From assembly GCA_938002955.1 (NCBI GenBank), contig CALLAA010000045.1, positions 19,470 to 83,469 of the forward strand: a stretch of DNA of 64,000 nucleotides, in the 5' to 3' direction. The notes beneath the pieces were generated by a model. The model was not told the origin of the DNA and did not search any database. It saw only the letters and a program-made list of their open reading frames with translations. This stretch comes from an uncultured Acidimicrobiales bacterium. GTDB lineage: Bacteria; Actinomycetota; Acidimicrobiia; Acidimicrobiales; SHLQ01. Position numbers and translations under genes: made by a program. Positions 54,018 to 59,088 of this stretch are shown here, in pieces (the first letter of the stretch is position 1; each line of letters opens with the position of its first letter).

Positions 54018-55376
54018 ATGGCTGAACATCAAACAGACGTCATCGTCATCGGACTTGGCCCCGCAGGAGAATCCGTCGGCGGCCAGCTTGGCGAGGCAGG
54101 ACTCGACGTCGTCGGGATCGAAGCCTCGTTAGTCGGCGGCGAGTGCCCCTACTGGGGATGTGTGCCCTCGAAGATGATGATCCGCGCTGCGAACGCGTTG
54201 GCCGAGGTTCGCCGGGTCGACGGCCTTGCGGGCACGGCATCGGCCGCTCCCGACTGGGCTCCAGTAGCTCGCCGTATCCGAGAACAAGCGACCGACACCT
54301 GGGACGACACGGTTGCCGTGGACCGCTTCGTCGGCAAAGGCGGGACCTTCGTCCGCGGCCGCGGCGTGATCACCGGCCCAAATACCGTCGAGGTCAACGG
54401 CGACACCTACGTCGCGAGCAAAGGCATTGTCGTAGCCACCGGCACCCTCGCCGCTGTTCCCCCGATCCCCGGGCTTGCCGAAACGCCGTACTGGACAAAC
54501 CACGGGATCATCGAGACCGAGGTTCTTCCAACGTCGCTGATCGTGCTCGGAGGTGGAGCCATCGGCGCCGAACTCGGCCAGGTCATGGCACGGTTCGGCG
54601 TACGGGTGAGCATCATCGAAGGCGCCGAGCGTCTCCTCCCCCGCAACGAACCTGAAGCCGGCGACACGTTGGCCGAGGTGTTCCGCTCCGAGGGCATCGA
54701 TGTTCACCTCGGACAATTTGCTTCGTCGGTGTCCTATGACGACGGCTTCACGGTCACCCTCGCCGACGGGACCATTGTCGAAGCCGAGCAGCTGCTCGTC
54801 GCAACCGGGCGCAAGACGTTCCTGAAGGAACTCGGTGTCGCCTCGATCGGTATCGACGACACCGCCATGTTCTTGGACTCAGACGAGAACATGCAGGTAC
54901 AAGACGGGCTGTGGACAGTGGGAGACATCGCCGGCGAAGGCATGTTCACGCACCTCGGCACCCGCCAGGCCGACGTCGCTGTGGCGCACATTCTTGGCCG
55001 CAAGGCCGAGCCGCTCAACCTGGACGCGCTGTCTGCGGTGACCTTCACGGACCCCGAGGTCGGAGCCGTCGGCAAGACAGAAGCCGAGGCTCGAGACGCC
55101 GGCGTCGCGGTGAAGACGGCGTTCAAGCTGGTCGGACACACGGCTCGGGGCTGGCTACACCAGGCGGGCAATGAAGGGTTCATCAAGCTGGTCGCCGACG
55201 CCGATCGCAACGTCCTCGTTGGGGCGACGTCGGTTGGCCCCCACGGTGGCGAGGTGCTTGGCCTGTTGTCGCTCGCGGTGCACGCAGAGATTTCGATCGA
55301 CACGCTCCGATCGATGATCTATGCCTACCCCACGTTCCATAAAGGCATCGAAGACGCCCTCAAGGAACTCGCCTAA
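54018..55376 (+). CDS. Pyridine nucleotide-disulfide oxidoreductase (mercuric reductase/lipoamide dehydrogenase-like)
   Basis: DVIVIGLGPAGESVGGQLGEAGLDVVGIEASLVGGECPYWGCVPSKMMIRAANAL (CxxxxC redox motif)...IVLGGGAIGAELGQVMARFGVRVSIIEGAERLLP...WTVGDIAGEGMFTHLG...HAEISIDTLRSMIYAYPTFHKGIEDAL. Confidence 0.93.
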   Translation: MAEHQTDVIVIGLGPAGESVGGQLGEAGLDVVGIEASLVGGECPYWGCVPSKMMIRAANALAEVRRVDGLAGTASAAPDWAPVARRIREQATDTWDDTVAVDRFVGKGGTFVRGRGVITGPNTVEVNGDTYVASKGIVVATGTLAAVPPIPGLAETPYWTNHGIIETEVLPTSLIVLGGGAIGAELGQVMARFGVRVSIIEGAERLLPRNEPEAGDTLAEVFRSEGIDVHLGQFASSVSYDDGFTVTLADGTIVEAEQLLVATGRKTFLKELGVASIGIDDTAMFLDSDENMQVQDGLWTVGDIAGEGMFTHLGTRQADVAVAHILGRKAEPLNLDALSAVTFTDPEVGAVGKTEAEARDAGVAVKTAFKLVGHTARGWLHQAGNEGFIKLVADADRNVLVGATSVGPHGGEVLGLLSLAVHAEISIDTLRSMIYAYPTFHKGIEDALKELA

Positions 55377-55430: not shown

Positions 55431-56882
55431 ATGGCTGAACATTCCTTCGCTGACCTGCCCGCCGATGGTCTTGTCGCCGTGGTGAAACGGGATTGCGCTA
55501 CGTGCGAGATGGTCGAGCCGGTGCTCGCCCAGCTGCGCGAGACGAACCCCGACCTGATGATCGTGACCCAGGACGACCCCACATTCCCCGCACTCGACGC
55601 CGTAATTCACGACGCTGACCTCAGGCTGTCGTGGCACGCCGACATCGAGACCGTCCCCACGCTCATCATGCGTTCGGCCGGCGAAGAAGAGTCCCGAACC
55701 GTGGGCTGGAGTCGAGTGCAATGGGAGGGCCTCACGGGGGTCTGCGGGCTCGGCGCTGACCTTCCCGATCAGCGGCCTGGGTGCGGAAGCATGAGTGTTG
55801 ACCCCGACCGTGTCGATGCCCTGAACGCCAAGTTTGCCGGAGGCACAGCGAGTCGACGCGTCGAGTTCGCAGAGCTCGAAGATGAGTTCGAAGCAATGTT
55901 CGACCGCGGTTGGAGCGACGGTCTTCCGCTCGTCCCACCGACGCCCGAGCGTGTTGCCCGAATGCTCAGCGGCACGAGCCGCGACCCGTCCGACATCGTG
56001 GCCATCGTGCCACCGAACCTGATCGAGGCATCGGTCGAGAAGGTTGCGATCAACGCCGTGATGGCTGGTTGCAAACCCGAATACCTGCCCGTTGTGCTCG
56101 CCGGCCTCGAAGCGGTGTGCAACGACGACTTCAACATGCACGGCGTCCTCGCCACCACGATGGGAGTCGGGCCCATCCTGATCGTGAACGGACCGATCCG
56201 ACGCGGGCTGGAGATGAACTCGGGCATGAACGTTCTCGGCCAGGGCAACCGGGCAAACGCGACGATCGGCCGTGCCGTCCAGCTGTGTGTGCGCAATCTG
56301 GGTGGTGGCCGTCCGGGCGAGATCGATCGCTCCACACACGGCCAGCCCGGAAAGCTCGGTCTGTGTTTTGCCGAAGACGAAGAGGGGTCGCCGTGGACGT
56401 CGCTCGCCGAAGATCGAGGTTTCGCCACTGATACCAATACCGTCACGGCGTTCTGTGGCGAGGCGCCCCGCATCGTCTTCGATCAGATGAGCCGGACCGC
56501 CGAGTCGCTTACTGCGTCGATTGCTCAGGTGATGCTCGGTAACGTTCACCCACGAATTAGCGGCATGGACACGGTCCTCGTCCTGTGCCCCGAGCACATG
56601 GCTCGGTTCAGCGATGCCGGTTGGGACAAAGCGCGATTCGTGACCGAGCTTCGAGGTCACCTGAACCTCGACGTCGACAGCATCCTGCGAGGGGTCGACG
56701 GGATCGGCGAAGGCATCCCGGCCGGACTTGGCCTCGAGGGTTTGCAACTCCCGAAATTCCCCGACGGTGGCATTCTGCCGGTGCACGCTGGAGGGCCTGC
56801 CGGACTCTTCAGCTCGGTCATCGGTGGATGGGTGAGCGGACCTATGGGTAGTGTGCCAGTAACCAAGGAGATCGTCCGATGA
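55431..56882 (+). CDS. Thioredoxin-like domain fused to a large UGSC-associated domain
   Basis: N-terminus VAVVKRDCATCEMVEPVLAQL...VPTLIM (CxxC thioredoxin-like) followed by WSDGLPLVPPTPERVARML...; ATGA overlap with the UGSC gene. Confidence 0.7.
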   Translation: MAEHSFADLPADGLVAVVKRDCATCEMVEPVLAQLRETNPDLMIVTQDDPTFPALDAVIHDADLRLSWHADIETVPTLIMRSAGEEESRTVGWSRVQWEGLTGVCGLGADLPDQRPGCGSMSVDPDRVDALNAKFAGGTASRRVEFAELEDEFEAMFDRGWSDGLPLVPPTPERVARMLSGTSRDPSDIVAIVPPNLIEASVEKVAINAVMAGCKPEYLPVVLAGLEAVCNDDFNMHGVLATTMGVGPILIVNGPIRRGLEMNSGMNVLGQGNRANATIGRAVQLCVRNLGGGRPGEIDRSTHGQPGKLGLCFAEDEEGSPWTSLAEDRGFATDTNTVTAFCGEAPRIVFDQMSRTAESLTASIAQVMLGNVHPRISGMDTVLVLCPEHMARFSDAGWDKARFVTELRGHLNLDVDSILRGVDGIGEGIPAGLGLEGLQLPKFPDGGILPVHAGGPAGLFSSVIGGWVSGPMGSVPVTKEIVR

Positions 56883-57397
56883 GCGTCACAGTCCTCGACC
56901 CGACCGACGAAACCACGCCCCAGGTGCGTGAACGAGTCTCACGTCCGGAGTCGCTCGCCGGGCTGACGATTGGCCTGCTCGACATTTCCAAACCGCGTGG
57001 CAACGTGTTTCTCGACCAGGTCCAGAACCGGCTCGCCGAGCTCGACGCGACCGTCATTCGATTTTCGAAACCGACGTTCTCCAAGCCAGCCCCCGCCGAC
57101 CTTCGCCACGAGATTGCCTCCCAGTGTGATGCGGTGATCGAGGCCCTTGCGGATTGAGGCAGTTGTACGACGTGCAGTGTGCACGACATCAACAACCTTG
57201 AACGCAGCGGTATCCCAGGCGTCTTCGTCGCCTCAGCCCCGTTTGTCGACGCTGCCGCGATGCAAGCGGAGCGCCTTGGCTTCGATGCAGCACGAGTGTT
57301 TGTGGAGCACCCGATTCAAGATCGGACCGACGAAGAGATGTACGCGATTGCGAATAGTGCCGTGGACGAGCTGATCGGTCTGCTCACCGGCCCCTAG
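56879..57397 (+). CDS. Predicted UGSC family selenoprotein, in-frame TGA at 57155-57157 read as selenocysteine (residue 93)
   Basis: ORF 56879..57157 and ORF 57179..57397 share one frame, separated only by TGA: ...HEIASQCDAVIEALAD[U]GSCTTCSVHDINNLERSGIPGVFVASAPFVDAAAMQAERLGFDAARVFVEHPIQDRTDEEMYAIANSAVDELIGLLTGP*. Confidence 0.85.
57162..57196 (+). promoter_or_regulatory. Candidate bacterial SECIS hairpin
   Basis: GTTGT-ACGA-CGTGCA-GTG-TGCACG-ACATCA-ACAAC: 6-bp perfect apical stem, G-containing loop, lower 5-bp stem, starting 4 nt after the TGA. Confidence 0.7.
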
Positions 57398-57411
57398 CGG
57401 TCTTGTCTTGC

Positions 57412-57470
57412 TCGCTTAGGCGCCGATCTTCGATGCGGCTGTTCGCTTAGGCGCCGATCTTCGATGCGGC
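57412..57470. repeat. 28-bp tandem duplication with 31-bp period
   Basis: tcgcttaggcgccgatcttcgatgcggc at 57412-57439 and 57443-57470; the second copy contains the stop codon of the minus-strand desaturase. Confidence 0.95.
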
Positions 57471-58346
57471 GCGGCGCTCGAGCTTCTCGGCTCGCTCTAC
57501 CAGGCGCCCCGGCATTGCCAGGAGCGCTTCGCGGTCTTCGTCGGCTTCGGGGGTGAGCCCTTCGAGCTGATCGATCTTCCACTCGCGCAAGACCGGGGCG
57601 ATGATCTTCTCAGCGTGGATACGCAGATCGTAGATCTCGGCTCGGGCGGCCATCGCAGCTCGCCGCCGGAAACGAGGCACGACGGTCCCGGGCATATTGA
57701 AGTTCTCGTACACCTTGCGCATCGACTGAATGCATGCCGATGGGTCGAGCTTCAGCATTGCGCTGATGACGCCCTTGTAGAAGATGTAGTGGTAGTTCTC
57801 GTCGGCGGCGACGCGCTTCATGATTTCGTAGGCGACTTCGTCGTCGGCCTTGATGCCGGTGTTTCGGTGGGACACGCGGGTCGCCAGTTCCTGGGCCGAG
57901 GTGTAGACGAAGATGTCGAGCGGGTCGTCCCACGGCGAGTCCCACCCCTTCGTAACCGTGGCGACGCGGTCGTCCTCGAGCTTTACGGGATCGCAGTTGC
58001 GGCTGATCATGAGGTAGTCGCGAATGACGATGGCGTGCTGGCCTTCTTCGGCGGTCCAGCGGCGGGTCCAGCGGGCGATAGCTGACCCCTCAGGGGCCCG
58101 GCTCGCAATCGCATAGTGGTAGAACGGCAAGTTGTCCTCGGTGAGCAGGTTCAGGACAAGCGCTTCGCGAACCTCGGGGCTCACGGTGCATTGCGACTCG
58201 TCCCACGGCTCGTCAACGAAATTGCGGCCCTCTTCCCAACGGATCAGATCGTGCGCGTACCAATCAGGCCGCTTTTCTAAATGGTCTGCCATGAGGCGTT
58301 CGATATCGCCGTCAACCGCAGCCAGGAGTTCGTAATGTGCGTCCAT
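57447..58346 (-). CDS. Acyl-ACP desaturase (fatty acid desaturase type 2, ferritin-like)
   Basis: LLTEDNLPFYHYAIASRAPEGSAIARWTRRWTAEEGQHAIVIRDYL...EIMKRVAADENYHYIFYKGVISAMLKLDPS: EEGQH and DENYHY di-iron motifs. Confidence 0.9.
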   Translation of the reverse strand: MDAHYELLAAVDGDIERLMADHLEKRPDWYAHDLIRWEEGRNFVDEPWDESQCTVSPEVREALVLNLLTEDNLPFYHYAIASRAPEGSAIARWTRRWTAEEGQHAIVIRDYLMISRNCDPVKLEDDRVATVTKGWDSPWDDPLDIFVYTSAQELATRVSHRNTGIKADDEVAYEIMKRVAADENYHYIFYKGVISAMLKLDPSACIQSMRKVYENFNMPGTVVPRFRRRAAMAARAEIYDLRIHAEKIIAPVLREWKIDQLEGLTPEADEDREALLAMPGRLVERAEKLERRAASKIGA

Positions 58347-58473
58347 GCCGCGCCAAATGTAGTGCAGATAGAGCCGAGGATGAACCTGGGACGCTGAAAC
58401 GTGTGCGGCGTCACAAGATTTTTCGGGCCGCTGGTACCAAGGAGACCGCGTTTGCGCGGTACGGTCGAGCTTC

Positions 58474-59088
58474 GTGAACGCACTCCTCATCGGCATTTCC
58501 GGCGGCAGCGGCTCCGGAAAGTCCCGCCTTGCACACGACCTCGCAACCGCCCTCGGGCCGGACCGAGTCTCGATTGTTCCGTTCGACGCCTACTACAAGG
58601 ATCTGCGCGATCTTTCGATGGAAGAACGCAACGCCGTCAACTTCGACCATCCGGATTCCCTCGATGCCGAGATGTATGGCCACCACCTCGACGGTCTCAT
58701 GAACGGCCTCGACATCGCCCTTCCCGTGTACGACTTTGCCCGCCACCAGCGCATGGACGACCTGCACATCCTCCCCGCTCGCGAGATTGTGATCGCGGAG
58801 GGAATCTTGTTGTTCGCGTTCCCCGAGCTCGTCGAACGCTTCGACTACAAGGTGTTCCGAGCCTGTTCGGAAGATCTGCGATTTCGTCGCCGCCTCGAAC
58901 GTGACACGGTCGAACGGGGCCGTTCGGTCGAAAGCGTCACCGAACAATTCGCGGCATCGGTCAAGCCAATGCACGACGAGTTCGTCGAACCGAGCGCTGC
59001 ATTCGCCGACCGAGTCGTCGACCACACCGAGGACCTCGACGTCGTCGTACGCGAGCTCGCGCAACGGGTCGAGCTCATCAACGCCTAA
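58474..59088 (+). CDS. udk: Uridine kinase
   Basis: GTG start; LIGISGGSGSGKSRLAHDLATAL (P-loop)...VPFDAYYKDLRDLSMEERNAVNFDHPDSLDAEM...PVYDFARHQR. Confidence 0.92.
   Translation: MNALLIGISGGSGSGKSRLAHDLATALGPDRVSIVPFDAYYKDLRDLSMEERNAVNFDHPDSLDAEMYGHHLDGLMNGLDIALPVYDFARHQRMDDLHILPAREIVIAEGILLFAFPELVERFDYKVFRACSEDLRFRRRLERDTVERGRSVESVTEQFAASVKPMHDEFVEPSAAFADRVVDHTEDLDVVVRELAQRVELINA

Follow-up and report, generated by a model that had tools for sequence, protein, structure and literature searches.

Positions 56879-57397 of the window, the whole 64,000-nucleotide stretch of uncultured Acidimicrobiales DNA analysed here, hold what we regard, with very little doubt, as a genuine gene of the UGSC selenoprotein family, to judge from its sequence and from that of its relatives. 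The near-obligate pairing of such genes with an upstream partner, together with probable homology of the UGSC protein to the selenocysteine (Sec) domain of GrdB, recasts an orphan family as a two-subunit enzyme that can be tested.

One reading frame across an in-frame TGA

56879..57397, + strand: predicted gene of a UGSC-family selenoprotein (172 aa, Sec93, stop codon TAG), each half of which matches NF041046 and PF24696
57155..57157, + strand: predicted selenocysteine codon, in-frame TGA, U93 of the UGSC motif; TGA in 148/148 Sec-form loci

The frame from 56879 to 57397 contains a single internal stop, the TGA at 57155-57157, and read-through places U93 in the context EALAD-U-GSCTTCSVHD. A sequence-only reading of this DNA had described two ORFs as one frame broken by this TGA alone, and its coordinates, frame, product length of 172 aa and U93 all proved exact. 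It had also put forward the name 'UGSC family (seleno)protein', which is real and belongs to NF041046. The read-through protein scored 152.2 bits against that model (E 9.5e-45; curated cut-off 125) and 150.6 bits against PF24696 (cut-off 25). Taken alone, the two halves matched adjacent parts of the NF041046 profile, 2-68 and 70-146, and each half likewise matched its corresponding adjacent part of PF24696. The [U/C]GSC motif was found at its conserved position as U93-G-S-C96. With a whole-length match above the cut-offs, the UGSC motif and Sec at the same position, the window protein is by sequence a member of a known, functionally uncharacterised selenoprotein family. This family has been known since 2008 as the UGSC-containing protein of the GOS survey, a set dominated by Sec forms (255, against 21 with Cys; PMC2398784).

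The same reading had held that coding character continues past the TGA. Consistent with this, pairwise dN/dS against close relatives was 0.06-0.22 on the 5' side of the TGA and 0.02-0.21 on the 3' side (where dS could be estimated), and the 3' half alone matches both family models; ratios well below 1 on both sides indicate purifying selection on both halves. The comparison of homologues that it had proposed showed U or C at the Sec93 position, with conservation of the sequence to either side. The existence of a separate gene after the TGA is implausible, because its start, GTG 57179, falls within the SECIS-like hairpin described below and 3' of the conserved G94-S95-C96; the GTG 57179 start is an artefact of plain ORF calling. 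The read-through gene explains the splitting of such genes at the TGA by plain ORF finders.

Predicted decoding of the TGA codon

A search for the Sec machinery, which the earlier reading had seen nowhere in the window, found all of it elsewhere in the same assembly, which comprises 3.9 Mb and is ~90% complete. The tRNA-Sec, with anticodon TCA, scored over its cut-off, as did SelA, SelB and SelD; all three proteins are encoded on contig C145, SelA and SelB adjacently. We then surveyed tRNA-Sec in 45 genomes picked from the search results. It was present in all sampled phylum genomes with TGA-form UGSC (23/23) and in all six named genomes reached through loci, and two of the three genomes with Cys-only UGSC lacked it. 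In two genomes, tRNA-Sec lies ~1.5 kb from the UGSC gene (G315 contig C3 and G124 contig C39).

Across many assemblies and phyla, the Sec codon was TGA in 148/148 Sec-form loci, a set that was gathered as UGA forms, so that U/C frequencies come from other sets. Among 73 distinct sequences of a first set, 68 had U and five had C at the Sec93 position; an independent set from genome contigs gave 69 U, two TAG and one sequence truncated before the site. The two TAG codons are in L145 (Blastococcus) and L184 (Geodermatophilus obscurus). In Geodermatophilus, the one of these two genomes that was checked, the tRNA-Sec anticodon is CTA, and ARAGORN labels this tRNA as tRNA-Pyl. These observations agree with the published UAG-coded UGSC proteins of Geodermatophilaceae (PMC5330540, which cites Mukai et al. 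2016), which belong to the same family; the window gene differs from them in having an ordinary UGA.

If the TGA were a true stop, in a decayed pseudogene or between two genes, or a sequencing error for TGC or TGT, the Cys forms in 5/73 distinct homologues would be in keeping with it. Such readings are nevertheless scarcely credible in the face of a same-codon TGA in 148 loci, purifying selection on either side of it, the Sec machinery in the genome and the co-switch of TAG codon and CUA anticodon. Independent assemblies carry TGA, so the TGA is no sequencing error; the pseudogene, two-gene and sequencing-error readings were rejected on the TGA in 148 loci and the two-sided purifying selection. 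UGA 57155 almost certainly encodes Sec, and we infer that it would be decoded as such in vivo.

A putative SECIS hairpin downstream of the TGA

57169..57187, + strand: putative bacterial SECIS hairpin, GACGTGCA-GTG-TGCACGAC, 12-30 nt 3' of the TGA

A hairpin ~12-30 nt after the Sec codon is the commonest arrangement in the family, with 78 of 148 loci having it at the same place. The codon for Ser100, in the apical loop, was AGT in 124/124 cases, and AGT makes up 7% of Ser codons in the partner genes. Where position 100 is Cys or Gly, the codon is TGT or GGT and the apical GU is retained. The AGT bias and GU retention point to a constraint at the nucleotide level, the bias not being explained by the protein. 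Considered alone, the window hairpin was not significant, since 11% of its synonymous shuffles folded equally well, and an Rfam search of the region returned no SECIS or other family at significance. It is the position shared across the family, together with the codon bias, that marks this element as a putative SECIS hairpin just 3' of the UGA.

A near-obligate upstream partner

55431..56882, + strand: partner gene, start ATG 55431 (reading frame open from 55416), 483 aa; N-terminal Trx-like domain plus unnamed domain
56879..56882, + strand: ATGA overlap of the partner stop (TGA 56880-56882) and the UGSC start (ATG 56879)

The gene directly upstream of UGSC encodes a protein of 483-488 aa, and the ATGA overlap between the two genes suggests their translational coupling. 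The core of the partner is an unnamed domain of ~370 aa with the motifs GWxDGLPxVPPT ... NAVMAGCxP ... GPGNRANATIGRA. No Pfam or NCBIfam family matched the partner above cut-off, a PDB sequence search with the UGSC and partner profiles gave no meaningful match, and the viral contigs searched held no partner relatives.

The partner domain was adjacent to UGSC, or fused with it in frame, in 87 of 88 UGSC match rows, some places being counted twice among these rows. The search was also reversed: the core domain was run against 85,462 species genomes, the 80 best loci were kept, and UGSC was looked for in each. A UGSC gene was found in 72 of these 80 loci, mostly immediately downstream; three of the other eight run into a contig edge, and the remaining five (L156, L187, L198, L201 and L208) lack UGSC in the locus sequence. 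The isolate that L208 comes from carries a complete UGSC-partner pair at another locus, L168. Copy numbers of UGSC and partner were equal in 20/20 genomes, four of these having neither. The window's own genome has a second UGSC copy (G000:C152:13987-15627; L019 5988-7631), which is an in-frame fusion with the partner domain and has its own TGA, in the motif CUGSCTPAVMRAS. This second copy adjoins a gene for an X-Pro dipeptidyl-peptidase (S15).

The near-constant co-occurrence suggests a two-part selenium enzyme. UGSC and the partner very likely form a functional pair, and we infer that they do so as a complex. The 2008 survey mentions a fusion of UGSC to a domain 'Unknown_1' (PMC2398784, Fig. 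S1); the second copy on C152 resembles it in joining UGSC to a domain of unknown function. The near-obligate pairing is not stated in the portion of PMC2398784 that was accessible.

Probable relation of the UGSC protein to the Sec domain of GrdB

An AlphaFold model of the UGSC protein, built with 51 sequences, had a pLDDT of 93 and a flavodoxin-like alternation of strands and helices, and placed Sec93 just before helix 94-109. Foldseek returned weak, generic alpha/beta matches to this model (flavodoxins, WrbA and response regulators; TM-score up to about 0.52), with no thioredoxin among the best 50. The flavodoxin-like model and this lack of thioredoxins argue against the Trx-like fold earlier proposed for the family (PMC2398784, PMC13188914).

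In the region of its Sec, TIGR01917 (glycine reductase selenoprotein B) matched 40 of 51 UGSC members with E values of at most 0.1, the best being 8e-6. HHalign aligned UGSC residues 28-166 with actinobacterial GrdB-like proteins with the Sec in register (P 2e-5, probability 77%). The full-length TIGR01917 comparison gave 22.7 bits, far short of the curated cut-off of 602.2, the homology being confined to the Sec domain, and a GrdB search of this genome gave no match at E 1e-30. The UGSC protein probably represents the GrdB/PrdB Sec domain in stand-alone form, as a distant homologue and not a GrdB. The domain to which it would correspond, with Sec in register, is the C-terminal Sec domain of GrdB/GrdF/GrdH (TIGR01917/01918) and of PrdB of D-proline reductase. 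In contrast to these, UGSC consists of the Sec domain only (172 aa) and has UxxC(xxC), whereas the aligned GrdB-like proteins have U-x5-C (UGTGTRC). As the partner is without any Pfam match, it has no match to the GrdE/PrdA proprotein families. Around the UGSC motif, 18 of the 51 members also showed weak similarity to DUF116 (PF01976), with E values of at most 1 and a best value of 9e-4.

A thioredoxin-like domain co-occurs with a second cysteine

55494..55505, + strand: Cys-Ala-Thr-Cys (CxxC) of the Trx-like domain, its two Cys invariant across 53 partner sequences

The model of the partner (pLDDT 92.5) has an N-terminal thioredoxin-like domain, assigned by fold with Foldseek; among the best 50 matches of the whole partner model only this domain was matched, and none covered the core. 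Cys99 of UGSC was present in 37/37 proteins with a Trx-bearing partner and in 7/35 with a Trx-less partner. This association may stem from a single ancestral event, following one clade. The co-occurrence nonetheless fits electron transfer from the Trx domain to Sec93/Cys96/Cys99, a path that we consider somewhat more probable than its absence.

A two-component selenoenzyme as the favoured reading

Glycine, sarcosine and betaine reductases are Sec enzymes that act with a second, substrate-specific subunit. By analogy, a modular two-subunit reductase of similar logic would be the most economical model for UGSC and its partner. In the reading that we favour with some confidence, a Sec gene, a two-component redox enzyme, a Trx relay and GrdB-type chemistry would belong together. 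UGA 57155 would be read as Sec by the genome's SelA, SelB, SelD and tRNA-Sec, helped by the downstream SECIS hairpin. The UGSC protein would be the catalytic Sec subunit, and the unnamed domain encoded upstream would be its near-obligate second subunit, probably substrate-binding. In the window subtype, the fused Trx-like CxxC domain of the partner would re-reduce the Sec93/Cys96/Cys99 centre. The chemistry might be a Sec-dependent reaction that reduces a small substrate or cleaves it reductively, the substrate differing by subtype; the homology with protein B of glycine/sarcosine/betaine reductase, in its Sec domain, points in this direction, and we propose reductive cleavage only tentatively. 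Set against this explanation are the diverse neighbours, which point to no single substrate, and the moderate HHalign probability (77%) for GrdB homology, along with the U-x5-C motif of the GrdB-like proteins. The five partner loci lacking UGSC, the possible single-clade origin of the Trx/Cys99 association, the window hairpin's lack of individual significance and the non-conserved FAD oxidoreductase upstream also count against it.

The UxxC motif, the Trx domain fused on the partner and the placing of the family among Trx-fold proteins (PMC2398784, PMC13188914) would also suit a general antioxidant or thiol-disulfide oxidoreductase of the peroxiredoxin/thioredoxin-like type, with the partner as a mere chaperone or docking protein. 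We consider this unlikely, since the UGSC model (pLDDT 93) is flavodoxin-like with no Trx among its best 50 matches, and since a near-obligate, even fused, partner and varied catabolic contexts suit a substrate-specific enzyme better. Less likely still is a selenium-handling or regulatory module, in which the pair would carry or sense Se on behalf of the Sec system and would not be a metabolic enzyme. The finding of selA and/or selB directly beside the pair in several lineages, and of tRNA-Sec ~1.5 kb from UGSC in two genomes, would be in line with such a module. It is countered by divergent subtypes that adjoin catabolic genes and by genomes without tRNA-Sec that have a Cys-only UGSC and its partner (G103, G151), which means that the pair has a selenium-free role.

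The two-component enzyme reading can be taken further, to a conjecture that we hold more loosely than the chemistry itself: UGSC and partner could represent an undescribed class of modular two-subunit selenoenzymes, widespread in Actinomycetota, Proteobacteria, Acidobacteriota and Chloroflexota, in which a GrdB-type Sec domain cleaves varied small substrates reductively and some forms have a built-in thioredoxin relay. As far as the open-access literature searched shows, the following are additions: the near-obligate pairing with a partner, the lack of a database family for that partner, the relationship to GrdB and the correction of the fold. The co-occurrence of the thioredoxin domain of the window-type partner with the second cysteine is, within the same literature, a further addition.

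Genes around the pair

54018..55376, + strand: FAD pyridine-nucleotide-disulfide oxidoreductase of the MerA/dihydrolipoyl dehydrogenase class, separated by 54 bp from the partner gene downstream

Window-type pairs adjoin unrelated genes or selA/selB, and selA and/or selB, recognised by eye from sequence, lie beside the pair in several lineages. Divergent subtypes adjoin genes for CoA-transferase, acyl-CoA dehydrogenase, short-chain dehydrogenase, thiolase and a TRAP-type binding protein; further neighbours of these subtypes are an isocitrate-dehydrogenase-like enzyme with an aldolase, an amidase, a hydantoinase and a P450. G425, a genome of the same order, has ten UGSC matches, several of them divergent, beside different catabolic or transport genes. 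The FAD oxidoreductase was considered as a conserved part of the system and rejected, as elsewhere it was found near UGSC only in a same-genus genome. At 57397-57470, a ~30-bp tandem duplication carries TCGCTTAGGCGCCGATCTTCGATGCGGC twice and repeats the 3' terminus, stop codon included, of an acyl-ACP-desaturase-like gene on the - strand (57447-58496).
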